DNA of 45,931 nt from a virus. The notes beneath the pieces were generated by a model. That model was not told the DNA's origin and searched no databases. It saw only the letters and a list, made by a program, of their open reading frames with translations. Location: positions 1 through 45,931 of the IMG/VR virus record IMGVR_UViG_3300049212_000020; one strand, given 5' to 3'. How positions within the stretch are numbered: position 1 is the first letter of the stretch; the number at the start of each line of letters is the position of its first letter. The translations under genes and the position numbers were made by a program. Positions 28,213 through 45,931 of this stretch are shown here, piece by piece.

Positions 28213-28241
28213 CGTGCTACGAGCATATGGGGCTTATGGAT

Positions 28242-28254: not shown

Positions 28255-28264
28255 CAAGAAGCCC

Positions 28265-28293: not shown

Positions 28294-28367
28294 CCCACCA
28301 ACCAAAGACCCTGGCGCTGCTGCTAACAGCCCAGGGTCAGCCACCAGCCGCTTTCAAGGAGCGACCA

Positions 28368-32117: not shown

Positions 32118-33256
32118 TCCCGATACCAGCTATCCCTGTCATGGGTTGGTTCTGCATCAGGCAGGTTGAAGTCTGGCTCGTGAGGGTAGATAGCGTGCTG
32201 TGCAACGATGGTGTTGAACTCAGCCTCGGAGATACCGACGTAGTCTAGGAAGATGTCGAGCGATGGCGGACGGCGCCCCTCATTGGCTGCGATCACAGCC
32301 CGCGCCTCCTCGGTAGTCATGCGCCCGTTGCGGATGTCGATGGCGCAGTTCTGGGACACACGCGAGTACCCGCGCTTGAGAAACTTGAGGTAGTCGCGAA
32401 CGCCCTGCATTGCGCATTCAACCTTATCGTAGGTCCAACGTCCGCTCGGCATGCCCTCCACAGCGTCACCCTTCCATCCAAGCTCTTGCTCGATGATCTT
32501 CACCTGCTCACGCACATCCCACTTGATGAACGATCCCAGGCACACAGACCTAACGCCCAGCTTCTGTAGCTCTGAGCGCGGCGGGTACTGGAACGGCTTG
32601 AGATCACGGTAGTCAAAGTCGAAGTCGTGCTTGATCATCCCAGCTATGTCGTCGGCCGTGATACCGAGGTTGATGAACCGGTTGAACCGTGTCTCGTCTA
32701 CGTTCTCCTCTTCATCGTAGCCGAAGTACGACGTGTAGTCGCTGGACCGTTCACCCCAGAAGATCAGCGGCACCTGAAACTTCAGGGCTATGTGCATCGG
32801 GAACGAAAATACACCTACGTGACACGACCAGCAGAAATCGGATTTGCGGATCAGCGCCTCAAGCATGGTCCGCTTCACCAGTTTCCAGTTGGCAGTGAAT
32901 GAGAGCGAGTCCACCCCTAGGCGCTTGATCGTCCGCTCCATATTCTTGTTCACGCCGTCGCGCATGAACCCGTGATCGTAGCGGACCACGAGCGGCTTGA
33001 TCTTGTAGTTCGTGACGAGGTACCAGAGGGCGAAGGTTGAGTCCTTCCCACCACTGAACGGAATAATGCAGTCGTAGTCGTGTCTGCCTCGGTACTGCTC
33101 GATCAGCGCGTCCAGGTCCTTCTTCTTGGCGTCCCAATCATCTGCTTCCTTGCGCTCGTGAGCCCTGCAGATGTTGCATACGCCGTCATGGCCAATCTCT
33201 AGCGTCTCGTAGGTGATAGGGAGCAGGCACCGGGCGCAGCGTTCCATGTCGTTCAT
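32099..33256 (-). CDS. N-acetyl sugar amidotransferase (WbpG/PseA family)
   Basis: A 385-residue PP-loop ATPase: SGGKDS at residues 68-73, with an N-terminal zinc-type cysteine set (C7, C10, C27, C30). This is the family that converts an N-acetyl group on a sugar or nonulosonic acid to an acetamidino group, using ammonia delivered by a HisF-like partner, encoded next. I start at ATG 33256, which overlaps the upstream stop (ATGA) behind GAGG, not at the GTG two codons earlier. Known relatives: WbpG (O-antigen), PseA and LegX-type (flagellin glycan). The exact substrate is not deducible. Confidence 0.87.
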   Translation of the reverse strand: MNDMERCARCLLPITYETLEIGHDGVCNICRAHERKEADDWDAKKKDLDALIEQYRGRHDYDCIIPFSGGKDSTFALWYLVTNYKIKPLVVRYDHGFMRDGVNKNMERTIKRLGVDSLSFTANWKLVKRTMLEALIRKSDFCWSCHVGVFSFPMHIALKFQVPLIFWGERSSDYTSYFGYDEEENVDETRFNRFINLGITADDIAGMIKHDFDFDYRDLKPFQYPPRSELQKLGVRSVCLGSFIKWDVREQVKIIEQELGWKGDAVEGMPSGRWTYDKVECAMQGVRDYLKFLKRGYSRVSQNCAIDIRNGRMTTEEARAVIAANEGRRPPSLDIFLDYVGISEAEFNTIVAQHAIYPHEPDFNLPDAEPTHDRDSWYRECSKSV

Positions 33257-34068
33257 GCCCACGTCCTCGGGTCGTTGTCTGTGCAGACGCCCATGTCGAG
33301 CATCGGTACGTACCGCTCGGTCCCCAGCGGTTCACGCTTGGCTATCTCTAGGCACTCATCCAGCTCGCTGATGGTGGTCGGCCCGATGATCACCATGTCC
33401 GTGGTCTCGTTCTCTAGTCCCGAGCGAAGGGCTAGTGTCTTGAGGTTTACACCGAATGCTGCGGCGACCTTCTCTGCCGCCTGGACACGCTGCTTGAGGG
33501 TATCGTTGGGGCATTCCTCGCCCGCTAGGACGCCCTGAAGCAGGGCGCTGCGCGCAATCCGTGTCTGCTTGGGGGCCCTTGCTTCAGGTCCATACCGGTA
33601 TGGATAGGGTGCATAGCACCTGCGCAGAATGTTCCATTCGTGCTGGATGTAGTCGAAGTGGATGAACGCTGCCGTCGCGCTGTCGCTGTCGTCGTGTTCG
33701 AAGTAGATCGATGCGCCACGGATCCAGTTGGCCGGCCAGCCGATGTGCCTGGTCCAGTTGTGGTAGAGGAACACCACATCCGCACGCTTCGGGTCGCCCC
33801 GCAGCAGATGCTGAATGCTCTGCGCCGCCTCAGCGACATCGCCACGTGTCTTCGTGAAGATGCGCGCAGAAAGATTGTTGCACTTGAGCACGTGCCCAAT
33901 GATGTTCTCGGCCTGGCCGTAGGTTGGGGCGGTGTCGAAGGTCCGAATGCCAGCGTCCCACGCATGCTTGATGAGCGCGATGGCATCCTCGGTGTTGACC
34001 TCACGCTTGTTGCGCCCATACGGCAATCCCCCCAGCCCAGCCGTCCCCAGGATCAGTTTCTCAATCAC
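33253..34068 (-). CDS. Aldo/keto reductase (sugar cassette)
   Basis: A 271-residue AKR-family oxidoreductase: catalytic tetrad candidates D45 and Y50 (FDTAPTYG), K73 (FTKTRGD) and H103 (LYHNW). Shorter than the usual ~310, as seen in AKRs of sugar and flagellin loci. The start is GTG 34068, one base inside the TAG of the aminotransferase (TAGTG), preceded by a perfect AGGAGG at 34074-34079 with five-base spacing; the in-frame ATG at 34104 lies inside the aminotransferase and is less likely. It probably reduces a keto-sugar or aldehyde intermediate with NAD(P)H. Confidence 0.85.
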   Translation of the reverse strand: MIEKLILGTAGLGGLPYGRNKREVNTEDAIALIKHAWDAGIRTFDTAPTYGQAENIIGHVLKCNNLSARIFTKTRGDVAEAAQSIQHLLRGDPKRADVVFLYHNWTRHIGWPANWIRGASIYFEHDDSDSATAAFIHFDYIQHEWNILRRCYAPYPYRYGPEARAPKQTRIARSALLQGVLAGEECPNDTLKQRVQAAEKVAAAFGVNLKTLALRSGLENETTDMVIIGPTTISELDECLEIAKREPLGTERYVPMLDMGVCTDNDPRTWA

Positions 34069-35291
34069 TAGTGCCTCCTGAACACAGCAGTGTTGATCTT
34101 GCACTCCAACCGCTTCTCGACCGAGTGATCGCTGATCGCCTCAGCGACAACGGCCATGGCGTCGTCGTAGGCCTTCATGGTCTGCTCCATGGCGTCCATG
34201 TGGTGCGACAGGCTGATGAACTGCCCCGATGCCAGCATGACCCCACGGCGCAGTAGCTCCTGGATGAACAGGGTCTGCCGGGCCGGGTTGTCCCATTCGA
34301 TACTGGTGTAGTGCGGTAGGCCGCGCATCCGGGTGTGGTCGGTGAGGTTGTGCGTGGTCGCAGCCTTGGTGTAGCCGTCGATCAGCGACTGCCCCACCAC
34401 CGCCTGGTTGTCCCAGAACCAACCATCCTCCATCTGCTCCAGGTTGTAGAGCGCCGCCTTCATCGCCGTGACTTCTGCGAAGTGCGTCCCCGACAGATGG
34501 GTCTCGCTCCAGCAGTCCATGATGTCCTTGCGCCCGCAGACCAGGCTGATGGGCCAGCCGTTGGCCAGAGCCTTGCCTGCCGTCGTCAGGTGCGGCGTGA
34601 CGTTGTACACCTGCTGCGCTCCACCCGGCGCCATGCGGAACATGGTGATCGTCTCGTCGAAGATCAGGACCGTCCCGGTATCCTCACAGAGCTTCAGCAC
34701 CCGCGGAAGGTACCAGTCATACGGCGCCGTCAGCGATACCGGCTCCAGGATGAACGCTGCCACATTCTTGTAGAGCAGGTGGTCCTCTAAGGACTCCATG
34801 TCGTTGTAGGGCACGGAGACGGTCAGGTCCCGCACGCACTGTGGTACGCCCTTCTTGTCGGCGTAGTCGGCATTCAGGAACACGTCCTGGTAGCCGTGGT
34901 AGCCGCAGCGGACGATCTTCTCGCGTCCCGTGTACGCACGCGCCAGACGCACCGCTGCACTGGTCGCATCAGTTCCCGTCTTCATGAAGCGCACGGCCTC
35001 ACAGGACGGGATCATCGACTGCACCTTCTCAGCCAGCTCGACCTCAGTCCACGACGGCAACGGCCATGCGATGCAGTCGCCAGACAAGCCGCGCTTGTGT
35101 CCCAGCGTGATCGCGCCCAGGCCCATGGTCCAATCGATGTACCACTTGCCATCAGAGCCCAGCACGCGGCATCCGTCACCGTCCATGATGAACTCGGGGC
35201 CAAATCCATCGCAGTAGCGGTAGCGGCCCTTGCTGCTGACCTGAGTCCCCATCGGGACCAAGCGGTCGTGCCGCTCGCGCATCGTCGTCAT
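34068..35291 (-). CDS. Class III aminotransferase (GSA-aminomutase-like)
   Basis: A 407-residue PLP enzyme of the glutamate-1-semialdehyde aminomutase/class III group: FDETITMFR at residues 211-219 (D212 contacts the pyridine), PLP lysine K240 in TAGKALANGWP, and the phosphate-binding TGTDAT at 105-110. Members of this subgroup recur next to SpsF-like cytidylyltransferases and AKRs in surface-glycan loci, where they aminate or isomerise a sugar intermediate; the haem-pathway role is unlikely in a phage. ATG 35291 overlaps the upstream stop by one base (TGATG). Confidence 0.85.
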   Translation of the reverse strand: MTTMRERHDRLVPMGTQVSSKGRYRYCDGFGPEFIMDGDGCRVLGSDGKWYIDWTMGLGAITLGHKRGLSGDCIAWPLPSWTEVELAEKVQSMIPSCEAVRFMKTGTDATSAAVRLARAYTGREKIVRCGYHGYQDVFLNADYADKKGVPQCVRDLTVSVPYNDMESLEDHLLYKNVAAFILEPVSLTAPYDWYLPRVLKLCEDTGTVLIFDETITMFRMAPGGAQQVYNVTPHLTTAGKALANGWPISLVCGRKDIMDCWSETHLSGTHFAEVTAMKAALYNLEQMEDGWFWDNQAVVGQSLIDGYTKAATTHNLTDHTRMRGLPHYTSIEWDNPARQTLFIQELLRRGVMLASGQFISLSHHMDAMEQTMKAYDDAMAVVAEAISDHSVEKRLECKINTAVFRRH

Positions 35292-36031
35292 CACTGCAAC
35301 GCCTCCATGTACTTGCGCCATCCTGCATTCACCCCGCACTTGCGGATTAGTTCAGCGCACCGCGCCAGGTCTGCTGGCGTATCGACTGAGAATTTGACGT
35401 TCTCCGTGGAACAGTACGACGGGTTAATGAAACCATTCATGCACTCGCGCATGTAGGTGGTCACATGTTCGCGCTGCCGTTGTTCTTTCGCCATCTCGTT
35501 TGAGCGCATGAGTGCATCGTAGCTAAATACCTCCACGTCCGATCCATCCGGATCATTCGTCTGGCCAACGTAGGCCATGCCGCTGCGGCGGAACGTCTGA
35601 AATAGCTCACCAATCAGCCAATGGTCAACGAGCGGGCAGTCACCGGTGATGCGGACAATGCCAGCCGTCGCGCCGTATTGAGCGAATGCCCACGTTGCTG
35701 CGTCCGAGAATCGCCTGAGCACATCCGACTCATTACCGCGGAACAAACGCACTGGGATTCGGAGTCGCGCCACCTGCCTGAGAAGGAGGCCATTCGCTAC
35801 GTCGTTCTTGTCTAAGCGCTCGAAGAGAGTCGGTTCATTCTCGATGTGGTGCGCAAGCGGGACGTTCTCTGGAGTGTCGGGAATGGCTACCACAACCAAC
35901 CTCGGGCCCGAATCCAGCACCCGATCAATCACATGCTCAATCACCGGCTTCCCACACAGATCCGCCAGCATCTTCCCCGGAAATCGCTTCGATCCCATGC
36001 GGGCCTGGATGATGACCGTTGCGTCAATCAT
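35291..36031 (-). CDS. SpsF-like cytidylyltransferase
   Basis: A 246-residue nucleotidyltransferase of the CMP-sugar synthetase/SpsF family: N-terminal ATVIIQARMGSKRFPGKM (residues 4-21), ITGDCPLVD around residue 120, and a VKFSVDTPADLA segment near the C-terminus. It would activate an acidic sugar as CMP-sugar for transfer. Start ATG 36031 overlaps the upstream stop (ATGA); an in-frame ATG at 36097 lies inside the upstream gene and encodes a non-conserved extension. It is the first enzyme gene of the sugar cassette. Confidence 0.88.
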   Translation of the reverse strand: MIDATVIIQARMGSKRFPGKMLADLCGKPVIEHVIDRVLDSGPRLVVVAIPDTPENVPLAHHIENEPTLFERLDKNDVANGLLLRQVARLRIPVRLFRGNESDVLRRFSDAATWAFAQYGATAGIVRITGDCPLVDHWLIGELFQTFRRSGMAYVGQTNDPDGSDVEVFSYDALMRSNEMAKEQRQREHVTTYMRECMNGFINPSYCSTENVKFSVDTPADLARCAELIRKCGVNAGWRKYMEALQ

Positions 36032-36435
36032 ACCGCTACCCGCTCCTTCGCTCGCGCCTCGGCGCGCTTGTTTGATTCTCTCCTGCAGGCTCGACACCGG
36101 CGCACGCCATTGGAGTTGAGGACATTGTCAGGCGTCAGCGCATGACCCTTGCGGCACACGTCCTGCCGCTCCCCAACCTTCGCGAAGGCCTCACGGAACG
36201 CTGACTGATTGGCCTTGTAGTCCTCAGCCAGAGCAAGCGCGCGGTCCTCAATCGTATGATGCAACCGCTCAAGATGACGCTTCAGGCCATCGATATACCG
36301 ATCGCGTTCAGACAGCTGATCCTCTAGCCGCTGAACAGTCTCGCGCAGCACCCACAGCTTCTGGCTATGAGATTGCACCTGCGAAACCGCATCGCGATAC
36401 TCCTGCTTAATCGCATCAGGCGTGCAGTCGGTCAC
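36028..36435 (-). CDS. Coiled-coil protein with HNH-like cysteine motif
   Basis: A 135-residue protein: residues ~5-85 form a charged coiled coil; ~90-118 carry CRKGHALTPDN...RRCRACR, the front part of the phage HNH/zinc-finger motif (C-x2-GH ... C-x2-C) but without a complete HNH core; the C-terminus is basic. It probably binds nucleic acid. It is joined to the sugar cassette by ATGA overlap and separated from the next upstream gene by 31 bp, so it links the replication genes and the cassette into one transcript. Confidence 0.65.
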   Translation of the reverse strand: MTDCTPDAIKQEYRDAVSQVQSHSQKLWVLRETVQRLEDQLSERDRYIDGLKRHLERLHHTIEDRALALAEDYKANQSAFREAFAKVGERQDVCRKGHALTPDNVLNSNGVRRCRACRRESNKRAEARAKERVAV

Positions 36436-36466
36436 TTTGTCCCCCTGCTTGCGGGAGAGGCGCTAG

Positions 36467-36889
36467 TCATGCCAACTTCCCCACCCCCGCCCCCTTGCCG
36501 TCGATGGCTGAGCTGTGGTAGATCGCCAGCATCTTGTCCCCGATGGCTTTCAGCGTATCGCGCTGCGCCTTGGACGGGCTGTCATAGATGATGCCGATGA
36601 GCGACAGCGTCCACTCGTTCAGCAGTGAGCGCGGTATGCACACATGGTCTGCGGGGATGGCGTGGAGAGCTTTGGCGGCTTCCTCTGCTGCGCGTTGAAT
36701 TGATTCTACGCACGATTCGCCGTGAGAGTCATTAGACCAGTCTTCGGTATTGTGATAGGCTTTCCCTGCTCCTGCTACCATGCCTAGAATGGCATCGATT
36801 GGTGCGCAGCCTGTTGGCTCGAAACTGTAATAGTACGCACAGAGATCAGCCTTTGGCTCCCGCAGCGCGTCGGGTGGTTGGGGGGTCAT
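36467..36889 (-). CDS. Hypothetical protein after the repeat gene
   Basis: A 140-residue protein starting at ATG 36889 within ATGA overlap of the Gly-rich repeat gene. A longer in-frame opening into the repeat would give only Arg/Leu/Gln strings and is not credible. The protein is mixed alpha/beta with Cys-containing N-terminal part (LCAYYYSFEPTGC) and a helical C-terminus. No family recognised; typical small early phage gene. Confidence 0.7.
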   Translation of the reverse strand: MTPQPPDALREPKADLCAYYYSFEPTGCAPIDAILGMVAGAGKAYHNTEDWSNDSHGESCVESIQRAAEEAAKALHAIPADHVCIPRSLLNEWTLSLIGIIYDSPSKAQRDTLKAIGDKMLAIYHSSAIDGKGAGVGKLA

Positions 36890-37200
36890 GATCTGCGCCT
36901 TCGACCTGATAGCGTGACAGTGCCGTAGCCGTTGCCGTTGCCGTAGCCGTAGCCGTTGCCGTCGCCGTTGCCGTAGCCGTAGCCGTAGCCGTAGCCGTCG
37001 CCGTAGCCGTCGCCGTTGCCGTAGCCGTTGCCGTCGCCGTTGCCGTAGCCGTAGCCGTAGCCGTAGCCGTCGCCGTAGCCGTCGCCGTAGCCGTTGCCGT
37101 AGCCGTCGCCGTAGCCGTCGCCGTTGCCGTAGCCGTAGCCGTCGCCGTAGCCGTAGCCGTTGCCGTCGCCGGTGCCGTTGCCGTTGCCGACAGGCTTCAT
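36886..37200 (-). CDS. Gly-(Tyr/Asn/Asp) repeat protein
   Basis: A 104-residue protein. After MKPV, about 87 residues alternate glycine with Tyr, Asn or Asp (GNG, GDG, GYG units); a short TVTLSGRRRRS tail follows. Both ends overlap neighbouring genes by ATGA (start 37200 in the stop of 37197-37499, stop in the start of 36889), which is strong evidence that this frame is translated. Such Gly/aromatic low-complexity chains can be disordered, aggregate or phase-separate; the Arg tail could bind nucleic acid. No homolog or function is recognised. Confidence 0.7.
   Translation of the reverse strand: MKPVGNGNGTGDGNGYGYGDGYGYGNGDGYGDGYGNGYGDGYGDGYGYGYGYGNGDGNGYGNGDGYGDGYGYGYGYGNGDGNGYGYGNGNGYGTVTLSGRRRRS
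36922..37189. repeat. Hexanucleotide tandem repeat GCCGT(A/T/C)
   Basis: About 268 bp of six-base units that vary only at one codon-position base (GCCGTA, GCCGTT, GCCGTC on the plus strand), encoding Gly-Tyr, Gly-Asn and Gly-Asp on the minus strand. A larger unit of 72 bp is duplicated in tandem: 36946-37016 equals 37018-37088 (71 bases). Unit gains or losses stay in frame. Confidence 0.9.
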
Positions 37201-37499
37201 GCCAAGCCCCAATCATCGGCAACCGGAATGCGGAAGATTTCCGCTTCGGCTGGAATGTCCACTGGCGTGTCCATCTTACGGATCGTCACCTTGTCAGATT
37301 TCGGCTTGGCAATGACGCCATCGAAGCCAACCGATTCCCACCGAAATACCCATACAGCGCGAGTCAGGGTGATGCGTCCGTTGGCTTCTGCTACGTCACC
37401 TGCGAATATCCAGCCACGGTCAACGACCACGACGGCCCGTTTCCCGTTCGGCTGTTCACGGCGATAGGTCACGCCGTCAATGGTTACTGAATCCTTCAT
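37197..37499 (-). CDS. Hypothetical early protein
   Basis: A 100-residue predicted beta-rich protein (VTIDGVTYRRE, VVVVDRGWIFAGDV, AVWVFRW strands). No family recognised. ATGA overlaps both neighbours. Likely an accessory early gene. Confidence 0.7.
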   Translation of the reverse strand: MKDSVTIDGVTYRREQPNGKRAVVVVDRGWIFAGDVAEANGRITLTRAVWVFRWESVGFDGVIAKPKSDKVTIRKMDTPVDIPAEAEIFRIPVADDWGLA

Positions 37500-37786
37500 G
37501 TGTTCTCCTTGGTGTGGTGTTGAGAAAGGTGTGCGGCGATTGCCAAGAGGTCGGCGGGGGTGAAGCCACCTTCGTAATGGTCCGGTATGTTAATGAACTC
37601 GCTGCCCTTCTCGTAGTACGGCACCGTCTGGCCCTCTTCGGGCATGCAGAACTCAATCCCCTCCGGCAGCCCATCCGCCGCGATCAGTTGCAGCAGGCGA
37701 TTGAGCACCGCGTCACGGTGATGGTGCAACGCGTACTGGATGGACATGTAGGACAGGTCCGGCGGTTCAACGGGTGGCGGTGTCAT
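37496..37786 (-). CDS. Hypothetical early protein
   Basis: A 96-residue protein with a Pro-rich N-terminus, a helical centre and an acidic/aromatic stretch; no domain recognised. Coupled by ATGA overlap to both neighbours. Confidence 0.7.
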   Translation of the reverse strand: MTPPPVEPPDLSYMSIQYALHHHRDAVLNRLLQLIAADGLPEGIEFCMPEEGQTVPYYEKGSEFINIPDHYEGGFTPADLLAIAAHLSQHHTKENT

Positions 37787-37977
37787 GGCTTCACCTCATG
37801 AAGTAATTCAAATGCTCGATTAATTCGGTTTTGGTAGTGTGCGGCGATCACGACACTGGTCTCTTCGGCATGGGCAAGCATTGCTCGGAGCCGTGAGTTT
37901 TCCGCCTTGAGGCGCTTCACCTGTCGGGCGAGCTTTACTTGGTGCTCCATGTTCACGGCAAGATGCTTGTCGCTCAT
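37783..37977 (-). CDS. Small coiled-coil protein
   Basis: A 64-residue, Lys/Arg/Leu-rich protein with a heptad-like leucine pattern (residues ~15-35), probably a short dimerising coiled coil. Coupled to both neighbours by ATGA. Unknown function. Confidence 0.65.
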   Translation of the reverse strand: MSDKHLAVNMEHQVKLARQVKRLKAENSRLRAMLAHAEETSVVIAAHYQNRINRAFELLHEVKP

Positions 37978-38771
37978 ACCCCCGTCCCTTCCGTGGTGGT
38001 GGGCGATGGGGTGAGGGCGGCCAGCGTGGCCTCTGCTTCTCGCAGCCAGTGCGCGACAACCTCATAGTTGGTGTTGCTGATCGACGGTCGTAGCTCGTAC
38101 TCAAATGCTCGCCATGAACCGTCAACCGCTGCTGTTAGCTTCCGCAAGACTTCCCGCGCCTTGTCGAGCTGGTTGCAGGAGTCGTTAGCCAGCCGCTGCA
38201 TGTCCGCGCATTGCGCCTCAGCCGCATCCCGTTCCCTGGCCATCTCCTCAAGCTGAGCCAACAGCTTCGCCTCCCGCGACCCGGACATTCCCAGCAGGCA
38301 GGCTTGCTCTAGGGACTCGGCTCGCCAGTGGTCGCGTTGTTCGGCCATAGTGTCCGAAATCGCGATGCGGTCCTCGATTCGACCCCGCAACCGCTCGGCC
38401 TCGGCTCGCCAGTGGTCGATCTGCGCATGCAGGACGTGGTATTGCTCGTCGCTCACCACCGCAATCGCCACGCCGGCTATCGTCTCGGCATCACTCTCGC
38501 ACACGAACGCAATGCGCCCGTCATCCTGGAGCGCGCGTATCGCCTTCGCCACTCGTTCCCGTAGCTGGTCGCTGGGGGCGGTCATGTAAGAATCCCCCTC
38601 CCGCTTTTGGGTCACTGGTGCGTCATCAAAGTATTCTGGATGGTCGCGACGGAGGCGGTCGTCGGCGGCGAGGATGCAATTGATGACGCCAATCTGCGCG
38701 CTGTTGGTAACGAACGCTGACCAGTGCGCGGACTCCATTGCGTGCGCGTGACGGGCGGGGTGGATGGTCAT
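37974..38771 (-). CDS. Coiled-coil early protein with possible internal start
   Basis: A 265-residue protein from ATG 38771 (ATGA overlap). An internal ATG at 38585 (residue 63, MTAPSDQLRERVAKAI) has a very strong GGGAGGGGG ribosome site eight bases upstream and would give 203 residues; both forms may be made. The C-terminal ~150 residues are Ala/Glu/Arg-rich coiled coil. The N-terminal 62 residues resemble a separate small domain. No function recognised. Confidence 0.65.
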   Translation of the reverse strand: MTIHPARHAHAMESAHWSAFVTNSAQIGVINCILAADDRLRRDHPEYFDDAPVTQKREGDSYMTAPSDQLRERVAKAIRALQDDGRIAFVCESDAETIAGVAIAVVSDEQYHVLHAQIDHWRAEAERLRGRIEDRIAISDTMAEQRDHWRAESLEQACLLGMSGSREAKLLAQLEEMARERDAAEAQCADMQRLANDSCNQLDKAREVLRKLTAAVDGSWRAFEYELRPSISNTNYEVVAHWLREAEATLAALTPSPTTTEGTGV

Positions 38772-38980
38772 GGCAGCCCCATCAGCTCACCAGCCAACCG
38801 TTCCCCCACCTCCATGATCATCTTCGCCGTCCTGAACTCATACGTGTTCTCGATATCCGTCACGTGCTCCAACTGGGCCATGGCATACGACACCTCATGC
38901 AGCCGCGGCAGCGCATCCAGCAGCCACAGGATCTTGCGCATGGTGTCATCGGATACTTCAAGACGAGCATGGCAGATCAT
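38768..38980 (-). CDS. Small helical early protein
   Basis: A 70-residue helical protein. I use ATG 38980, overlapping the replication gene's stop (ATGA); the longer frame upstream reads through that gene in the wrong frame. Function unknown. Confidence 0.65.
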   Translation of the reverse strand: MICHARLEVSDDTMRKILWLLDALPRLHEVSYAMAQLEHVTDIENTYEFRTAKMIMEVGERLAGELMGLP

Positions 38981-39738
38981 GCGGATTCCTTGGTGATGCG
39001 TTGGGTGGAACGCTTCTCGAACCAGTACTTCCACTCGTCGCCGTAGCTCTCGGGGAGGTTGCGGCTGTACCGCACCTGAAACCCGTTCTTCCGCGCCTTC
39101 CGGACGCACTCCCCCACGCACTCGCAGGCAAGCTGCCAGTCCTTGATGCCCAGCTTGCGCAGCCAGCCGATCCATTCGTCGACCGCCGACTCGTGCGTGT
39201 CGCAGCGGAGCGTGCCCAGGAAGGCGACGAAGTCCTCCCTGGACGTGGCGGTCTGTTTCCCCTCTGCACTCCCCTTCAGAGAAAGAGGAGAGGGAGAGTC
39301 TGTATCCTTGTCTTTATCTTGTAGGGTACTAGGTACCCTATCTGCTACCCTACTGGCTACTGTAGGGTAAGGGTTAGGTAAGGGTTCAGAGAGGTAGGGT
39401 TCCGCAGGAATCCCGTACCCCTCCAACAGCCCGAGCACCTGCTGATGAGGAGAGCACTTCCTGCTCAGCCCACCCGGGTACTGGAAGCGAATGAACTTGG
39501 TCAGGAACCACTTCCCGTTGGGAAGGATGTTGACGCGGCCCTCGAATACGTTCACGGCCAGCTTCCAGTCAATGGAAGTGCCGATCAGCATCTCAGCTAA
39601 CCGCTTGTTCGGATCCCACACACCGGCGTTGTCGCACTTGTCGCAGACAAACTGCCACAGTGCCTTCATCTCCAGGGGCAGCTCCATGAACCATGGGTCT
39701 TCCCACTTGTTGGCGTCGGTGAATCGCTTCTTGGTCAT
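38977..39738 (-). CDS. Replication initiator-like protein
   Basis: A 253-residue protein beginning MTKKRFTDANKWEDPWF, a start typical of phage replisome organisers and DnaT/O-like proteins with an N-terminal winged-helix domain. An acidic, low-complexity linker (DKDKDTDSPSPLSL) at about residues 140-155 separates it from a C-terminal helical domain that could recruit host helicase. The DNA of the linker region carries inverted iterons (39322-39369), as lambda's origin lies inside its O gene. Start ATG 39738 overlaps the RuvC-like stop. No helicase or polymerase is encoded, so host replication proteins must be used. Confidence 0.7.
   Translation of the reverse strand: MTKKRFTDANKWEDPWFMELPLEMKALWQFVCDKCDNAGVWDPNKRLAEMLIGTSIDWKLAVNVFEGRVNILPNGKWFLTKFIRFQYPGGLSRKCSPHQQVLGLLEGYGIPAEPYLSEPLPNPYPTVASRVADRVPSTLQDKDKDTDSPSPLSLKGSAEGKQTATSREDFVAFLGTLRCDTHESAVDEWIGWLRKLGIKDWQLACECVGECVRKARKNGFQVRYSRNLPESYGDEWKYWFEKRSTQRITKESA
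39322..39369. repeat. Iterons inside the replication gene: candidate origin
   Basis: Four exact heptamers: TAGGGTA at 39322-39328, TACCCTA at 39334-39340 and 39346-39352, and TAGGGTA at 39363-39369. The first three starts are 12 bp apart; the first pair forms GGGTAC-TAG-GTACCC. Near-copies continue to about 39400 (TTAGGTA, TAGGGT, GTACCC). A pyrimidine/purine-biased, AT-richer stretch lies beside them at about 39275-39320. This is the expected look of an initiator-bound origin. Confidence 0.55.
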
Positions 39739-40208
39739 GACACCTTCAACCGTTCTTCCCGGGTGTCGTGCCAGGTCACGGCCAGTGCGAGCGCAGCCCA
39801 CACGTCAGCCTTGACCCCATACAACGGACCGGGCGCCTTCTTCGTCCCGATCGCCCTCTCCTTCCCCGGTCCATACCGGTCGATCAACGCCTGCCGGATG
39901 CTGGCGTCGTTAGCCTTGGTGCTCTTGCACAGATGCAGCTTCACGTCCTGACGGAACAGGCGGTGGACGTTATCGCTAGCTGACTGATAGAAGCGCCCGA
40001 TCCAGAACACGGTCTCGAATACCTCGCGACCGACCGGCATGCCGTAGCTGGCGACCATCTCGATCACTACTTCTCGGACCCCACGACCAACCGCAGCCAA
40101 AGGCAGCAAGCCGGCATTGGGCCGCTTATCGAAGCTAACAATCTCGCCATCACGCATGGTGACGTACGCGCTCTCAACCGGCCCAGGATCGATCGCGAGG
40201 AGGAGCAT
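39735..40208 (-). CDS. RuvC-like Holliday-junction resolvase
   Basis: A 157-residue RNase H-fold nuclease: D7 in LLAIDPGPVESAYV, E50 in VVIEMVASYG and D135 in GVKADVWAALALAV are the expected catalytic acids of phage RuvC/RusA-type resolvases. It would cut branched DNA during recombination or before packaging. Start ATG 40208 overlaps the upstream stop by one base (TGATG); the upstream in-frame extension lies in that gene. ATGA overlap with the replication gene. Confidence 0.8.
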   Translation of the reverse strand: MLLLAIDPGPVESAYVTMRDGEIVSFDKRPNAGLLPLAAVGRGVREVVIEMVASYGMPVGREVFETVFWIGRFYQSASDNVHRLFRQDVKLHLCKSTKANDASIRQALIDRYGPGKERAIGTKKAPGPLYGVKADVWAALALAVTWHDTREERLKVS

Positions 40209-40696
40209 CAGCGGTTCGCCTCTGTCACCAGATCGAACATGTCGTTGTGGCGCCTCTGATGCGCCCGCTTCATCCTCTGCAGTTCGATCCTCTCGATGGC
40301 AACCTGCTTGGCGGCCCTGCAACGCTGAGTGTCATCGGCCCTGATACGCATGGCGCCGCGTTTGGCTGCCCAGAGAAGCCACGCCCCGTTGGGCTGGCCG
40401 TTCTTCTTTCGGCAGAACCGCAACGTCCAGTCACAGCGCGCACGATAGCAGTCGCGATCAACCTCATCGCGATCCTCGTCATCGGACAGCTCTGCAACCA
40501 GCTGGGCAAGCGGTTGGTCCCACCCAGTGTTGAAGTCAACGGTCCCTACCGAGACCACCTGATAGGCAGCTTTGGCGGCAGCTGCGATTCTCTGACTGCG
40601 TGGTGTCTGCTTCACGTCAGGCCTGCACAGACGCCGCTCGACGGCCTCCTGCACGTCCTGCTCGGTACCATGAATGCGCCAGTACTTATCCAGCAC
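40208..40696 (-). CDS. Hypothetical early protein
   Basis: A 162-residue Arg/Asp-rich protein starting at GTG 40696, five bases after GGAAGG, with 11 bp overlap with the upstream gene. It has a cluster of Cys and Arg in the centre (CYRARCDWTLRFCRKK) and a basic helical C-terminus, so nucleic-acid binding is plausible. No family recognised. An upstream in-frame ATG at 40780 lies inside the previous gene. Confidence 0.65.
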   Translation of the reverse strand: MLDKYWRIHGTEQDVQEAVERRLCRPDVKQTPRSQRIAAAAKAAYQVVSVGTVDFNTGWDQPLAQLVAELSDDEDRDEVDRDCYRARCDWTLRFCRKKNGQPNGAWLLWAAKRGAMRIRADDTQRCRAAKQVAIERIELQRMKRAHQRRHNDMFDLVTEANR

Positions 40697-41321
40697 GGCT
40701 ACCTTCCAAGTCTGCCAGCATGATCCGCAGTTCCTTGGCGCTGAGCTGAACGGGGCACTGCAGGATGTAGACGTGCCCACGAGCGGCGCGCCACTTCAGC
40801 GGCACATCCTCGGGCTCCTCCGGTTCGACCGTCTTGAGCGTCGCCTCCCACTCCTTACGTCGCTTAGCGTCCATCTCGTCCTGAGCGCGAGCGAACGCTG
40901 CCTGCTCCTCCACCCCAATCACCCTACCAGCCCTGTCGAGAACGCGGTTCAGCGTCTTCAGATCAATCAGGTGGGCCGGAACCATCCGGTGATCAGCGCC
41001 ACCAGTCCACACAGCGAAACCGCGTTCGAGCACTCGCTTCTGGTCTGGGATGGACATCTTCCCGAACAGGTGCAGGCCAACGCATCCACGCGCAACGATG
41101 TCCGGCAACAGAAGGCCAGCAGCCACCCGTTCGATTGCGTCCCAGAACCTTGACGGGACGGTTGGGAACTCCGCTTCGATGGCCTCACGCCACCCAGACG
41201 GGTCAGCGTCGTATCCCTTCTTGTAGCTTCCTGCCAGTTTCTGAACGGCCTGCGCCAAGTCGCCTAGGGCGGCGCGGATTTCAGCGAAGATCGCTTTGTT
41301 GGATAGAGTAGCTGTAGTCAT
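40686..41321 (-). CDS. Hypothetical early protein, recombination region
   Basis: A 211-residue mainly helical protein from ATG 41321, 12 bp after the ssDNA-binding gene. It has a charged segment at about 150-170 (RRKEWEATLKTVEPEEPED). No domain recognised. Its place between SSB-like and RuvC-like genes suggests a DNA-metabolism role. Confidence 0.65.
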   Translation of the reverse strand: MTTATLSNKAIFAEIRAALGDLAQAVQKLAGSYKKGYDADPSGWREAIEAEFPTVPSRFWDAIERVAAGLLLPDIVARGCVGLHLFGKMSIPDQKRVLERGFAVWTGGADHRMVPAHLIDLKTLNRVLDRAGRVIGVEEQAAFARAQDEMDAKRRKEWEATLKTVEPEEPEDVPLKWRAARGHVYILQCPVQLSAKELRIMLADLEGSRAG

Positions 41322-41333
41322 GTGTGCCTCAGA

Positions 41334-41777
41334 TCAAAATGGCGGTTCGTCAACGTCGGCCTGCGCCGGGATCGCTGGCTTCTTGGCCGTGATCTCGCCG
41401 TTCGGCTGATCGCCTGCGACGATGTAGTCCTTGATGGAGTTCCGGGGGTCGAAGCCCTCCTTGATCTCCTGGATGACGAGGCACTTGCCGGTGCGGCCGA
41501 CGCACTGCTCGGCAGTGATCGCCCCGGTGTCGTAGTCCTTGCCGAGGCCTACTGCGTAGGCGAAGTGGCGCAGCTTCCGCTCGAACGCGGGGAGGATCCA
41601 ATCCTTCATCCGGTAGCTGCGGTCAGCGCCGACGAACACGCGCAGTTCCAGCGCGATCATGTCGTTGCCGGACTTGCTGACCCGGTCCTCGGCCTTTGTG
41701 ACCTCGAACGGGTAATCGCCGGGTTCCAGCAGCATCGCCGCTTTAAGCTGGGCTTCGGTTTTGGGGGCGAACTTCAT
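41334..41777 (-). CDS. Phage single-strand DNA-binding protein (DUF669-like)
   Basis: A 147-residue OB-fold-like protein resembling DUF669-type phage SSBs: N-terminal ML(L)EPGDYPFEV, a KSGNDMIALELRV strand pair, and an acidic tail ending DEPPF, the hallmark C-terminal tip of SSBs. I start it at ATG 41777 with AGGAG eight bases upstream; an ATGA-overlapping ATG at 41819 is possible. It follows the RecA-like ATPase gene, a common recombination pair. Confidence 0.75.
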   Translation of the reverse strand: MKFAPKTEAQLKAAMLLEPGDYPFEVTKAEDRVSKSGNDMIALELRVFVGADRSYRMKDWILPAFERKLRHFAYAVGLGKDYDTGAITAEQCVGRTGKCLVIQEIKEGFDPRNSIKDYIVAGDQPNGEITAKKPAIPAQADVDEPPF

Positions 41778-41815
41778 CAAATGCTCCTGGGGTAGGTCTG
41801 GGTCGTAGATCGGGG

Positions 41816-42709
41816 TCACTTGGGTAGCTTGGCCGTGAGGTAGGCGAGACGCTTCTGCATCCCCTCCTGATCAAGGTCATCCAGGTCCGGGCAGTTGTCG
41901 TTCCACTTCTCCAGGACAGCGGGATCGATCTTCACCGCTTCCAAGAGCTGCTTGTACTTGGCGATCTGCTCGGGCGTCGCCAGCTCGGTAGCCTTGGCAT
42001 CGGCCTCCATGACCTCGCGACCGTACTTGTCAGCGAAGCCGGTGTAGGACCAGTCGAACAGCTCGGCGTCAGGGAACTCCTTGAGCCGGGACTTGGTGAC
42101 GCGCGCCTTCCGGGAAGGCCCGTTCTTGACGATGTTCAGCGCCAGATGCAGCTCGTACTCCAGCTTGTCCCAGCCGTCGAACGTCACGCCGATTTCCTTG
42201 CCGTCCTTCCAGAGCGACTTCTCGTGGCAGATCAGGATCACATTCATGTCGAGGCGATCGAACCACCGGATCATGCGCCTCGTCAGCGTCACGGCCTCCT
42301 TCTTCTCAGCCGCGAACGTGCGGGTGGCGTCGAACTCCTTGTTCTTCTCCTTCGCTTCCCTCGTCATGCGCTCCAGGGACTGGTCGACTTGGGTGTTGAA
42401 CAGCTTGGAGTAGCTGTCGATCACCAGGGTCTTGAACTTGTGCGGTGTCGTGGCGAGCGTGATGACTTCATCCAGCACCACCTGGAAGTCGTTCGATCCC
42501 TGATCGGGACCGAGGTACATCCCGCCCGACGCCTTCAGCTTGTCGGTATAATGCGCCAGGTCCGCGCCGCCCTCGGTGTCGATGTAGTAGACGCTGGGGA
42601 AATCCAGCGAGGCCCACGTCTTGCCGACGCCGGGCTTACCAAAGATCAGCATCTTCGGCTTGGACGGCGTTGCGGCCTTGGGGTCCGTTGCTTTAAGCGT
42701 CCTCGTCAT
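41816..42709 (-). CDS. RecA-like ATPase (Sak4/AAA_24 type)
   Basis: A 297-residue ATPase with Walker A GKPGVGKT at residues 24-31 and Walker B TLVIDSY at 94-100. The plan matches phage Sak4-like single-strand annealing/RecA-core recombinases, which work with an SSB, here encoded next. Start ATG 42709 overlaps the preceding gene by 17 bp; a longer frame upstream is not conserved in character. C-terminal ~80 residues are helical and charged. Confidence 0.8.
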   Translation of the reverse strand: MTRTLKATDPKAATPSKPKMLIFGKPGVGKTWASLDFPSVYYIDTEGGADLAHYTDKLKASGGMYLGPDQGSNDFQVVLDEVITLATTPHKFKTLVIDSYSKLFNTQVDQSLERMTREAKEKNKEFDATRTFAAEKKEAVTLTRRMIRWFDRLDMNVILICHEKSLWKDGKEIGVTFDGWDKLEYELHLALNIVKNGPSRKARVTKSRLKEFPDAELFDWSYTGFADKYGREVMEADAKATELATPEQIAKYKQLLEAVKIDPAVLEKWNDNCPDLDDLDQEGMQKRLAYLTAKLPK

Positions 42710-42968
42710 CGCTCTCGACTCCTGTCCCGCCGCAATCAGGGCAGGTCGTTGATTCGTAGATGCCCATGCCCGTACCGCTGCAGGTGATGCAGCCCTGCTC
42801 CTCGTCGGCCTCGTCGTCGTAGTGCCGCATGGCCTTGGAGAACGCCTCCTCGGCATCGTCGCAGTGCTGGCTGCGGTAGGCTTCGGTTCCGTCGCTGAGC
42901 ACGACGCCGATCCAGCCCAACGGGGTGTTGTGCACCTGTACGGACAGCAGGCCCTCCGCCTTACGCAT
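42693..42968 (-). CDS. Small protein with DnaJ-type zinc finger
   Basis: A 91-residue protein. Residues ~55-85 have two CxxCxGxG-like elements (CITCSGTG and CPDCGGTG), the DnaJ/zinc-finger motif, followed by an acidic tail. Start ATG 42968 overlaps the upstream stop (TAATG) behind GAGG. Possibly an RNA/protein-binding early regulator; function unknown. Confidence 0.75.
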   Translation of the reverse strand: MRKAEGLLSVQVHNTPLGWIGVVLSDGTEAYRSQHCDDAEEAFSKAMRHYDDEADEEQGCITCSGTGMGIYESTTCPDCGGTGVESDDEDA

Positions 42969-43255
42969 TAGAGCCTCAGGCTGGTGTTGGTGCACACCCG
43001 CACGCGCTTGTTGGTGATCTCGTCGCGGACCTTGCCGGTCTCGCAGAGGTATCCCTCGTCGATCATCTCGGTGATGCGCGGGCGGACACAGTTGGCGTCG
43101 GTGAATCCCAGCGCGGTCATCACGTCACGGTCGGTCAGGGACAGGCGGCTGGCGGCGTAGACCTCATGGATCGCCTTCCAGCGCGCCTTGCGGTTCAGCG
43201 ACTTGAACGCCTCCAGGCTGTTGGCGTGCATCTGATGGGCAGCGTGAACGCTCAT
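42968..43255 (-). CDS. Winged-helix DNA-binding protein
   Basis: A 95-residue protein that looks like a winged helix: helices around residues 12-40, a DVMTALGFTDANCVRPRITEM recognition region and a wing (GYLCETGKVRDEIT). Probably a small early regulator or replication accessory. ATGA overlap at the start (43255). Confidence 0.65.
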   Translation of the reverse strand: MSVHAAHQMHANSLEAFKSLNRKARWKAIHEVYAASRLSLTDRDVMTALGFTDANCVRPRITEMIDEGYLCETGKVRDEITNKRVRVCTNTSLRL

Positions 43256-43554
43256 GCCATGCCCCTGAGCAACCAGCCAACCGCGAGGAAGGCGACGGCC
43301 TGAAAGGTGAGCAGCCCTACAAGACCCAGCGGGAACTCCCGCCGCCGGCAGTAGCTCGGCAGCGAGATTTCACACAGCTCACCCGTGCTGAACTCGTAGA
43401 CGATGAACACCCGGCCATCGATGATCTTGGCAGTGACCGTGCGGCGGATGTCCTGCGGCTTGAAGTCGTAGGTGTCCCACTTGACCTTCGGGTTGGATAG
43501 GTCGAAGCGCACCATGCGCTCGGGGGTCCTGATCTCCTCCAAGGGAGCGATCAT
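43252..43554 (-). CDS. Small protein with C-terminal membrane helix
   Basis: A 100-residue protein with a soluble N-terminal part rich in charged residues and one C-terminal transmembrane helix (about 78-97). Start ATG 43554 overlaps the stop of the 56-residue gene before it (ATGA). Unknown; membrane-anchored early proteins in phages sometimes act on the host envelope or division. Confidence 0.65.
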   Translation of the reverse strand: MIAPLEEIRTPERMVRFDLSNPKVKWDTYDFKPQDIRRTVTAKIIDGRVFIVYEFSTGELCEISLPSYCRRREFPLGLVGLLTFQAVAFLAVGWLLRGMA

Positions 43555-43721
43555 GGCGCAGTCCTTTCGGGGTTGACGTGGACGACGTAGTGGGGCTGGG
43601 GCTTGAGCGCGTGGTGAGCGACCACCAAGGCCAGCATCACGTTCACGATCGCCGTCAGGGCGAACACGCAGGACCACAGACGGTACTTGTAGACCGCCGC
43701 TTTGATCGGGCTGATGCTCAT
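43551..43721 (-). CDS. 56-residue membrane protein
   Basis: A short gene with ATGA overlaps on both sides: start 43721 in the stop of 43718-43954, stop at 43551 in the start of the next gene. It encodes a basic N-terminus (MSISPIKAAVYKYR), one hydrophobic helix (residues 16-35) and a His/Pro-rich tail, so a single-pass membrane protein. The double overlap and filled gap in an otherwise continuous operon are the main support. Confidence 0.7.
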   Translation of the reverse strand: MSISPIKAAVYKYRLWSCVFALTAIVNVMLALVVAHHALKPQPHYVVHVNPERTAP

Positions 43722-43954
43722 GGGGCCACCAGGCGGAAGTCGTAGTTCAGGACCGGCGTCGACTTGACGGCCTCAGTCGGCAGGAAGCCACGCTCTTGCA
43801 GCAGCTGCACCGACCACCAGGTGGAGTGCTTAGTCTGCCGGATGATGCAGGAGGACAGGCGCTGATCTTCGAGGCGCCAGCGGTACAGGGTGTTGGTTCC
43901 CACCCCGAGACGGGCTGCCAGGTCAGTGGACTTGAGGATGGCGGGGCAGGTCAT
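43718..43954 (-). CDS. MerR/AlpA-like small DNA-binding protein
   Basis: A 78-residue protein with a helix-turn-helix (residues ~8-30: LKSTDLAARLGVGTNTLYRW) of the MerR/AlpA/excisionase-like type, then a strand-rich tail. A candidate excisionase or early regulator because it is the second gene of the early operon; not proven. ATGA overlaps on both sides. Confidence 0.7.
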   Translation of the reverse strand: MTCPAILKSTDLAARLGVGTNTLYRWRLEDQRLSSCIIRQTKHSTWWSVQLLQERGFLPTEAVKSTPVLNYDFRLVAP

Positions 43955-44199
43955 GGGCGACCCTTCGAGCCGGACTTCCGGTTCTTGGCGCGCTCAGCAG
44001 TAACTACCTCCTGAAGGCGCTTGGCCGACACGCCAAGGCGTTCTGCCAACAGGGGGATGCGTGAGGCCGGTGGCAGCGACTGCCCGCAGAAGTAGAGGTA
44101 ACTCGTTGCAACTGATACTCCGACCAGCGGAGCGGCCTTATAGGCCGTGATCCCCCGAGAGTCGCAGAACCTTTTGTAGACTTGGCTGAAGCGTTTCAT
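43951..44199 (-). CDS. Cro-like HTH protein, first gene of early operon
   Basis: An 82-residue HTH protein (helix-turn-helix at about residues 15-55: RGITAYKAAPLVGVSVATSYLYF) with a basic C-terminus. It is transcribed divergently from the repressor at 44331; the 131-bp gap holds two palindromic operators (44214-44227, 44251-44264). This is the position of Cro in lambdoid phages, where it limits early transcription and favours lysis. It begins the minus-strand operon that continues without gaps over 40 bp to 28590. Confidence 0.75.
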   Translation of the reverse strand: MKRFSQVYKRFCDSRGITAYKAAPLVGVSVATSYLYFCGQSLPPASRIPLLAERLGVSAKRLQEVVTAERAKNRKSGSKGRP

Positions 44200-44213
44200 G
44201 GTTGCGTATATAT

Positions 44214-44227
44214 CTATTCTGGAATAG
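44214..44227. promoter_or_regulatory. Operator O1, within the early promoter
   Basis: CTATTCTGGAATAG, a palindrome except for its two central bases. On the minus strand a TTGACT -35 (plus-strand 44232-44237; five of six to consensus) precedes it and AT-rich ATATATA bases follow, so the operator lies between -35 and -10 of the early promoter. Binding here would shut off the early operon. Confidence 0.75.
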
Positions 44228-44250
44228 GAATAGTCAAGGGGCTAGTTTGC

Positions 44251-44264
44251 CTATTCCAGAATAG
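44251..44264. promoter_or_regulatory. Operator O2, near the repressor promoter
   Basis: CTATTCCAGAATAG, the exact reverse complement of O1; centres are 37 bp apart. It lies between the early promoter and the repressor start at 44331, so it may control repressor transcription. Confidence 0.75.
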
Positions 44265-44330
44265 TACTTCCAATTGTGGAACAGCTGTCTAGCCTAGTGC
44301 AAACGATGCATCGATACGGAGTTGAGCTAT

Positions 44331-44762
44331 ATGGAAACGAACACTATGTTTACGGAGGTGAGACCATTCGCCGATTTTGCTGTCATGCTCAAAGCCTTGA
44401 TGGGCGACCGCACCACGACGGCACTAGCAGATCTGGCTGGCGTCAGTCAAAGTGCGATCTCCAAGGCGCTGAGCGGTCGTCCGCTTCCTGATGTGGCCGT
44501 GAAGCGACTCGCCAAAGCGTTCAGGCTCGACAGTGCGATGCAGGCTGCATTCTATGAATTGGCAGCAAGCGCACGCGCGAGAAGCTACCGATCGGTTCGC
44601 GAATACATTATGAAGGTCGAGCGCGAGCGCCGCGACATGGAGTCACAACTCCTCAAGATTGCCAGGGCTCTGCTCAAGCGTCGCAAGGACATTCCCGAGG
44701 ACATCATTGAAATGGCGCAGGCGATTATAGACGGCCTCGGCGGTGGCGAGAGCCCCCCATAG
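44331..44762 (+). CDS. CI-like phage repressor (short form)
   Basis: A 143-residue protein with an XRE/CI-type helix-turn-helix at about residues 25-65 (TTALADLAGVSQSAISKALSGRP...). The remaining ~75 residues are a Lys/Arg/Glu helix, probably for dimerisation; there is no S24 peptidase domain, so RecA-dependent autocleavage is not expected. Start ATG 44331; a TTG at 44322 and ATG 44346 are alternatives. Divergent from the Cro-like gene across two operators, and likely the protein that also binds the operator at 24824. Confidence 0.8.
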   Translation: METNTMFTEVRPFADFAVMLKALMGDRTTTALADLAGVSQSAISKALSGRPLPDVAVKRLAKAFRLDSAMQAAFYELAASARARSYRSVREYIMKVERERRDMESQLLKIARALLKRRKDIPEDIIEMAQAIIDGLGGGESPP

Positions 44763-44956: not shown

Positions 44957-44970
44957 CAGTTCTGGAATAG
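44957..44970. promoter_or_regulatory. Degenerate operator upstream of integrase
   Basis: CAGTTCTGGAATAG has 12 of 14 bases of O1 and lies about 70 bp before the integrase start, in the 279-bp gap (44763-45041) between repressor and integrase. No other clear promoter or terminator is visible in that gap. It suggests int transcription responds to the same repressor. Confidence 0.5.
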
Positions 44971-45041: not shown

Positions 45042-45931
45042 ATGGCATGGCTCGACAAGGTCAAGAACGGCGACGGGAAAGTCACCGGCTACCGCATCAA
45101 GTACATGGTCGCCGGGAAGGCCAGGCCATCCCCGACCTACGCTACCAAGGCCGAGGCGTCTGAGCAGCTGCCTCACTACAAGGCGGTGGAGGACAGCCAG
45201 CGTCCGATGACCGGCGTGCGCGAGTTCGCCCCCATGACGCTAGAGGAGCTGGCGATCCGCTACGTCGACTACCAGATCACCGAGAAGAAGAAGATCAAAG
45301 AGTTCTACCGCGATGAGCGCCTGCGCGAACTCAGGCGCGCCATCACGGCTGGTGGCTGGGTCCGCACGAGCGACATCACCGTCGGCTCAATCATGGCATG
45401 GCGTAAGAAGTTCCGGTCCAACGGCAGCGCCCGCCTGGGTGCCTACCTGCGAGCGATGCTCAGGTGGGCATCCGAGAAGCTGGACCAGCAGATCGACCAC
45501 CGCATCCTGGCTGAGCTACGCCCGCCCAAGTGGCAGAAGAAGTTCCTGCCCCGCCCGTCGATGGAAGAGGTGCAGGGATGGCTTGCCAAGGCGAAGCAGC
45601 ACGGCCCCAACACCGACGCCTTCGTGAGCGCAATCCTCGGTCAGGGCTGGCGCATGCTCATGGCAGCGCGCCTCAAGGTCCGGGACTACATTCCGGTCCC
45701 TGGGAAGATGCTCCTGCGAGGCGTGGTCGAGAAGAACGGGCGCGAGCGGGAAACGCTCCTGCTGCCCGAGGTCAACCGCAAGATCGCAGCCATAACCGAT
45801 GGCCGCAGCCCTGACGAGCCGCTGTTCCTGGACCCGCGTACAGGCAAGGGCTGGCTCGCTGGTGGTGTTCGATGCGCTCCCACCCAATGGTGGCACGCCC
45901 ACATCGACGGCCGCGTCGGCAAGGGCTTCTA
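45042..45931 (+). CDS. int: Tyrosine recombinase integrase, 5' part (continues at base 141)
   Basis: Phage integrase that would recombine attP with the host attB. The gene crosses the contig join: read on from 45931 to base 141 it ends at 306, giving 351 residues. In the joined protein I place box I arginine at R204 (GWRM), the beta-hairpin lysine near K231, the second-box histidine at H323 (TGH) and the nucleophile at Y332 (MEYS). Where the family usually has H-x-x-R, this protein has Y297-N-L-K300, a substitution at a normally invariant arginine. The start is ATG 45042 with a CGGAG ribosome site at 45031-45035; no earlier in-frame ATG or GTG is close. A degenerate copy of the phage operator lies about 70 bp upstream (44957-44970). 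The usual partner, an attachment site, follows the gene at 384-427. Confidence 0.9.
   Translation, partial: MAWLDKVKNGDGKVTGYRIKYMVAGKARPSPTYATKAEASEQLPHYKAVEDSQRPMTGVREFAPMTLEELAIRYVDYQITEKKKIKEFYRDERLRELRRAITAGGWVRTSDITVGSIMAWRKKFRSNGSARLGAYLRAMLRWASEKLDQQIDHRILAELRPPKWQKKFLPRPSMEEVQGWLAKAKQHGPNTDAFVSAILGQGWRMLMAARLKVRDYIPVPGKMLLRGVVEKNGRERETLLLPEVNRKIAAITDGRSPDEPLFLDPRTGKGWLAGGVRCAPTQWWHAHIDGRVGKGF
45806..45931. repeat. Terminal direct repeat (right copy)
   Basis: Second copy of the 126-bp end overlap (see 15-140). It lies within the integrase gene in the same codon phase, so joining the two ends restores one uninterrupted 351-codon gene. This supports a closed circle rather than true linear terminal repeats. 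Confidence 0.9.

Follow-up and report, generated by a model that had tools for sequence, protein, structure and literature searches.

Dispersed copies of an immunity-switch palindrome in a probable temperate phage suggest common repression of late, Maf-like glycosyltransferase and integrase genes

The window, meaning the whole stretch of DNA that was analysed, is the complete IMG/VR virus record IMGVR_UViG_3300049212_000020, with a length of 45,931 bases. Positions 15-140 are identical to positions 45806-45931, so that removing this overlap and an odd 14-base start leaves a closed circular sequence of 45,791 bp. These first 14 bases of the record resemble an assembly artefact. Since the genome closes to a circle, the counts of operator sites given below cover a whole phage genome. 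Coding and non-coding DNA were scored with gene tables hand-picked from the list of open reading frames, and by these tables 3.9-5.0% of the genome is non-coding.

An integrase gene (phrog_1) runs over the contig join, with its 5' part at 45042-45931 and its 3' part at 1-306, both on the + strand, and the joined reading encodes 351 aa. Downstream of int, at 384-427 on the - strand, lies a probable attP core which blastn matched at 44/44 bp to positions 8495-8538 of record L020. This record holds phage G001, where the 44-bp core also directly follows the integrase gene. Judged by eye against the structure of tRNAs, the core looks like the 3' part of a tRNA-Phe gene (GAA anticodon); no whole tRNA was called by ARAGORN. 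The two phages have little other DNA similarity over the 14.9 kb compared, yet have these 44 bp in common. A 41-base part of the core had no exact match in the genome contigs, and a 37-base pattern of it had one exact match in the viral contigs. The closed genome, the integrase and the probable attP core together indicate that the phage is probably temperate and its genome probably complete.

The probable immunity repressor gene (44331-44762, + strand) encodes a 143-aa protein of the XRE/HTH_31 type. Its Pfam match to HTH_31 scored 28.2 bits against a cut-off of 27.0, and HTH_3 was also just above cut-off; besides these two HTH families the Pfam search gave only DUF2336, below cut-off, and no peptidase S24. 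The single-sequence AlphaFold model of the protein, of moderate confidence (mean pLDDT 75), has a helical C-terminal part. Residues 7-85 of the model resemble XRE regulators with Z scores of up to 7.4 (VIA), a range which the tool rates as common, and a Foldseek search of the fold returned no match at an E value of 0.001 or better. Facing the repressor gene across the switch gap is the first gene of the leftward early run, which encodes an 82-aa Cro-like protein with weak HTH matches (43951-44199, - strand). Further left lies the gene for a small HTH_17-like protein, below the Pfam cut-off, which is a possible excisionase (43718-43954, - strand). A divergent pair of HTH genes around operator sites is the usual repressor/Cro layout of lambda-type switches, and the 143-aa and 82-aa genes flank the gap as such a pair. 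An Rfam search returned no match.

The repressor/Cro gap contains two copies of a 14-bp palindrome, CTATTCyrGAATAG, starting at 44214 and 44251. O1 (44214-44227, CTATTCTGGAATAG) lies inside the spacer of a leftward early promoter-like sequence, and O2 (44251-44264, CTATTCCAGAATAG) is the O1 palindrome read on the opposite strand; with one flanking base, the two form a perfect 15-nt inverted repeat. The identical 12-base core recurs at 24824-24837 (ATATTCCAGAATAT), in the 27-bp gap between divergent late and Maf-like genes, and a 12/14 match in the int leader, at 44957-44970 (CAGTTCTGGAATAG), ends 71 bp ahead of the int ATG. Our analysis bore out all four of these sites, which had been described in the initial annotation. 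The accompanying statement that there are no other copies holds for matches of 12/14 or better; at 11/14 there is a weaker operator-like fifth site which that account did not contain, O3, also in the switch (44271-44284, CAATTGTGGAACAG). By the hand-picked gene tables, all five sites are entirely non-coding. With a position matrix trained on the two switch sites at 44214 and 44251 only, the best remaining positions were 24824 (score 16.3), 44957 (15.2) and 44271 (12.2), followed by a score of 9.6. The matrix scan that had been suggested thus placed 24824 first and 44957 second, and the many equally good matches that had been named as evidence against a common operator did not appear.

Promoter-like sequences were ranked among 180,280 candidates genome-wide using a matrix of E. 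coli frequencies, which may not fit the host. The top-ranked candidate falls inside the terminase/intein gene, and a stricter consensus scan gave no promoter in the switch region or in the 24824 region. The leftward early promoter-like sequence around O1 (TTGACT-19-TATATA, - strand, with the -35 box at 44237-44232 and the -10 box at 44212-44207) was fifth of the 180,280, and its -10 box TATATA ends 7 bases ahead of the Cro-like ATG. O2 overlaps the -35 end and the spacer of a weak rightward promoter-like sequence at 44247-44274 (rank 41). Around 44957 the best rank was 714, with no convincing sigma70-like candidate.

The leftward late (packaging/structural) run begins with a gene for a 214-aa protein (24171-24815, - strand). 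Leftward of 24815 there follow a terminase large subunit with an intein (21674-24178, - strand; Hint_2 and Intein_splicing domains), an adaptor-like protein, a major head protein and tail-like proteins, a content in keeping with a late operon. Divergent from this run is a gene for a Maf/PseD-like flagellin-type glycosyltransferase (24843-26465, + strand), which matched PF01973 (MptE-like) at 2.6e-21 and the PseD model NF050051 at 6.8e-19, the latter far under cut-off. Between the late-gene start codon (24815, - strand) and the Maf-like start codon (24843, + strand) are the 27 bp of 24816-24842. The Maf-ward promoter-like sequence (TTGTTC-16-TATATT, + strand, rank 4) has its -10 box at 24823-24828, which overlaps the operator in 5/6 bases, and the late-ward one (TTGCAT-16-TATAAG, - strand, rank 22) has its -10 box at 24826-24821, which overlaps it in 3/6; the two -10 boxes also overlap each other. 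The predicted RNA starts coincide with the two start codons or lie only a few bases from them, so that the late and Maf messages are predicted to be leaderless or nearly so.

Taken together, the switch, late/Maf and int sites probably belong to one dispersed-operator system governed by an immunity repressor. The 14-bp palindrome would be the operator of this repressor, for which a dimer of the 143-aa XRE protein is the likeliest candidate. The operator would probably be common to the 82-aa Cro-like protein, which could bind the same sites. Repressor bound at O1 would occupy the spacer of the leftward early promoter and silence the early genes. The sites O2 and O3, the latter weak, lie over a possible repressor promoter and could limit repressor synthesis, making O3 a candidate site for autoregulation. 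At 24824 the -10 boxes of both divergent promoters share bases with the operator, so that a single dimer there would block transcription of the late structural genes and of the Maf-like operon alike. Expression of int in the lysogen would be reduced by a dimer at 44957. From sequence features we infer the promoters themselves, the identity of the 143-aa HTH protein as the operator-binding protein, repression upon binding, and silencing of a sugar cassette which, as the distal part of the early run, would be shut off along with it. The proposed control of the early operon, the late genes and the Maf-like gene by the repressor is well supported by sequence, and that of int fairly supported.

The sugar cassette is of the nonulosonate type and encodes seven proteins at 28590-36097 on the - strand. 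Its matches were DUF4910, a formyltransferase with GNAT, WbuZ/HisF-like, WbuX, an aldo/keto reductase, an aminotransferase and a cytidylyltransferase, with WbuX above cut-off and the remaining family matches less strong. Among plasmids, WbuX matched 16 records, the best being a Rhodobacteraceae plasmid at 46.8%. Since the Pfam matches of the seven proteins include neither a NeuB-type synthase nor a HisH partner, the cassette may modify a host-made sugar.

Adjoining the cassette end is a second XRE module, in which a gene for a 92-aa regulator (27934-28212, - strand; HTH_3 at 6.1e-8) faces a 77-aa open reading frame (28368-28601, + strand) across the gap 28213-28367. A strong promoter-like sequence divergent from the XRE gene (TTGCCT-17-TATAGT, 28265-28293, + strand) ranked second genome-wide. 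The module has a repeat pair, GATATAGCGCAACTAT and GATATAGTGCTGCTAT, 34 bp apart, which was dropped as a distinctive operator because the matrix made from it scored 12.0 on itself and 11.0 at 24774; CTATATAGT was no more frequent than expected by chance. Two DnaA-box-like repeats at 27897-27953 (GAGTTATCCACAA and GAGTTCTCCACAA, 44 bp apart) may mark a replication origin. The best operator-matrix match in the second module was 9.3, at 27594. In the initial annotation, one repressor was proposed to silence the early genes with the cassette, int, the late genes and the Maf-like gene. That proposal is supported for the switch and late/Maf sites, fairly so for int, and for the cassette by extension from the early run only; the second XRE module falls outside it, as a module with no good operator copy means that a single repressor would not cover everything.

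No operator accompanies the cassette, which lies at the far end of a 15.6-kb leftward gene run from 44.2 kb; its silencing with this run is only inferred, through dependence on readthrough. It may instead have its own promoter and be expressed in the lysogen as a lysogenic conversion trait, a reading compatible with a real repressor regulon elsewhere in the genome. An operator-free promoter-like sequence at 36732-36703 (- strand), third in rank genome-wide, does lie upstream of the cassette, but it sits within a coding gene, and promoter-like sites in 28000-44330 as a whole are no more numerous than in shuffled sequence (2 against 4.5, sd 2.6). Terminator-like sites are fewer there than in shuffles (3, all rightward, against 8.8), and no leftward one was found. 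The XRE module at the cassette end, with no good operator copy, would fit independent expression, as would the frequent high expression of accessory prophage loci described in the available part of PMC7067206; against it, the Maf-like enzyme, a possible user of the sugar, is under the operator. We give expression of the cassette from its own promoter a substantial chance, short of an even one.

For the operator sites themselves, the main concern is resemblance by chance, that is, that only the switch sites are true operators and that those at 24824 and 44957 are AT-rich promoter palindromes of similar sequence. The operator sites are AT-rich, as promoters are, and the 44957 site is mismatched at 2/14 positions and has no clear promoter. 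At up to 3 mismatches there were 7 matches (palindromes counted on both strands) against a shuffle mean of 1.26, and none of 100 shuffles reached 7. In 300 first-order simulations, the expected number of matches per genome was 0.003 at the 24824 score and 0.12 at the 44957 score. To allow for the higher A+T content of non-coding DNA (46.6% against 39%), the simulation was repeated with a non-coding model (1,765 bases, 3,000 simulations). Even at this composition the expectations were 0.002 for 24824 and 0.012 for 44957; for 44271 the expectation was 0.13, which leaves O3 only suggestive.

A control harsher than the composition simulations was provided by 419 distinct matrices with permuted half-sites. 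These had on average 0.18 matches at a score of at least 15, and none of the 419 had four such matches, the number found with the real matrix, two of them by construction. At least five matches at 12 or more were seen in 17/419, and five wholly non-coding ones in 1/419. Since two of the real matrix's matches are its training sites, the control was recounted on matches beyond those two; on this count the real matrix yields two at 15 or more, neither of them in coding DNA. At least two matches at this score were found with 12/419 permuted matrices, 5 of the 12 only by re-hitting 44214 and 44251, and these same five are the 5/419 with at least two that are wholly non-coding; outside the switch sites, no permuted matrix has two non-coding matches at 15 or more. 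At least three non-coding matches at 12 or more occurred in 8/419. Some match at 16 or more was seen with 23/419, so that a single match as good as 24824 is not rare. The sites at 24824 and 44957 are jointly well beyond chance, by their joint position more than by either singly.

The comparison with G001 (record L020, 44,850 bp), the only relative found, bears on the same question. Its integrase is 32% identical to that of the phage studied here, and its gene order is an HTH_17-like gene (below cut-off), a gap, an HTH_31 repressor, the integrase and the same 44-bp core. The two repressors gave no meaningful BLASTP match and have only the HTH_31 family and their position in common. The 44,850 bp of G001 contain no TATTCyrGAATA at up to 2 mismatches. 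G001 has its own palindrome, TGTTCTCA-N4-TGAGAACA, found in two places at up to 3 mismatches, 6570-6589 in the switch gap and 7331-7350; since this 20-mer was derived by eye from exactly these stretches, finding it twice does not test it independently. The second copy ends 25 bases ahead of the integrase ATG at 7376, a start that we chose; the mechanical open reading frame starts at TTG 7304 and would place the palindrome inside the gene. The heptamer GAGAACA occurs 5 times in G001, 4 of them in the stretch that holds the switch and int; the fifth, at 25144, was considered as a late operator and dropped because it is inside the open reading frame 25017-25487. G001 thus repeats its own palindrome ahead of int, which supports the site before int as a real kind of arrangement, but it has no distant copy; with none at its late promoter, the late/Maf site is without parallel there. 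With the simulations, the recounted control and this parallel, we consider chance resemblance of the 24824 and 44957 sites improbable.

An integrase alignment query of the viral contigs (196 pattern stretches) gave one relative, again G001. In the same contigs, the repressor and the 214-aa late gene as queries each gave 23 pattern stretches and no relative, the major head protein 7 and none, and the N part of the terminase one and none; the Maf query gave no pattern stretch. In the genome contigs, the repressor query gave 70 pattern stretches and no relative. Megablast of 20001-45000 against the phage collection gave no match, and tblastn against it gave distant partial matches only, for the terminase (9 records) and a Sak4-like gene (10 records), with none for the major head protein, the integrase part or Maf. 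The terminase alignment was dropped as a basis for comparison because it was too divergent. At E values of up to 1 the repressor matched none of 50,697 phage records, a set which may not include BPs. A paired-operator scan of the viral contigs gave 11 stretches, none of which was accepted as a relative; in 9/11 the core, which encodes YSGI, belongs to coding repeats of type GYSGISG or NLNYSG. The L010 pair, one of these nine, stands ahead of the earliest listed start codon, its frame continuing past the edge of the locus, and was judged coding by eye. Pairs of TATTCyrGAATA palindromes (TATTCCGGAATA, TATTCTAGAATA) at L008:124-159 and L006:774-808 resemble operator pairs of unrelated contigs, that of L006 lying between listed open reading frames and that of L008 beside a promoter-like sequence, under a mechanical 139-aa open reading frame.

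We also consider it improbable that another factor, such as the Cro-like 82-aa protein or a host regulator, is the main one to bind the palindrome, for lytic or host-responsive down-regulation rather than lysogenic silence: the 82-aa HTH-like protein begins directly beside O1, and the binding specificity of the 143-aa and 82-aa proteins cannot be read from sequence, but an early lytic protein would shut the late and Maf promoters exactly when they are needed, and the divergent HTH pair around the sites has the usual repressor/Cro layout.

If the palindrome is the dispersed operator of an immunity repressor, as we prefer, then sequence alone predicts lysogen-silent genes of an orphan temperate phage, and hence the timing of its nonulosonate and Maf genes. 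It is plausible that at least the Maf-like gene would then serve lytic growth and not lysogenic conversion, and the one operator common to the divergent late and Maf promoters would make them a compact control element. A wider proposal, which we hold only tentatively and think on balance unlikely, is that the repressor times the whole flagellin-type glycosylation system to lytic growth, the sugar being put on virion or flagellar proteins while particles are made and not on the lysogen. The early run would supply the sugar enzymes, and the promoter facing away from the virion genes would supply the Maf-like transferase. If true, this would overturn the common view that surface-sugar genes carried by phages serve lysogenic conversion. 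For the sugar system as a whole, a lytic role is nearer to an even chance. Among the publications listed for phage-borne Maf or pseudaminate genes, judged by titles and abstract openings, none concerned such a lytic system.

The proposed arrangement would be one already known from a few other phages, closest in kind to that of mycobacteriophage BPs, with which homology is not claimed. Phage phiC31 has three repressor isoforms, and its repressor gene is downstream of the virion genes. Lambda CI is not known to sit on the int or late promoters, and unlike lambda CI, with its RecA-stimulated self-cleavage, the 143-aa protein matched no C-terminal peptidase S24 domain. The three switch sites, one of them weaker, are like those of lambda OR and OL, a system touched on in the available part of PMC6550527. 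Multiple repressor sites dispersed over the genome are also found in phiC31, and for phiC31 and L5 together 18-30 sites are given in the available text of PMC4557955. The stoperators of the Cluster A mycobacteriophage L5 are likewise repressor sites spread over the genome. However, as described in the same part of PMC6550527, these are 20-30 sites of 13-14 bp that lack dyad symmetry, are oriented with transcription, lie mostly off promoters and are bound by a monomer, whereas the sites here are few (five), palindromic and none in genes. In P1, as in the system proposed here, one repressor, C1, has operators dispersed at lytic promoters; by the accessible portion of PMC8546580, P1 has 22 operators with an asymmetric 17-bp consensus and its late promoter is reached through the activator Lpa, whereas here there are five palindromic 14-bp sites and the operator would lie directly on the late promoter.

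In BPs, according to the available part of PMC4557955, the repressor gp33 binds five regions, comprising a 12-bp palindrome inside PR and four small intergenic regions, with three identical copies among the dispersed operators and one with two differences. Promoters P6, P27 and P55 of BPs are lowered in the lysogen, and the weakest is one without confident promoter elements (PMC4557955). As in BPs, the palindrome here lies between the -10 and -35 boxes of an early promoter, predicted in our case, within a divergent repressor/Cro gap, and the near-identical copies are confined to intergenic regions, with 5/5 sites non-coding here. In BPs each palindrome is accompanied, at 5 or 8 bp, by another half-site of variant sequence (PMC4557955), whereas here only 44251 and 44271 form a close pair, with a 6-bp gap, and nothing above a score of 3 lies so near to 44214, 24824 or 44957. 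The attP of BPs is inside its repressor gene (PMC4557955), and the probable attP core here is downstream of int. Unlike BPs, as far as it is described in that text, the phage studied here has a different operator sequence and one site that would serve two divergent promoters, for the late genes and for a glycosyltransferase.
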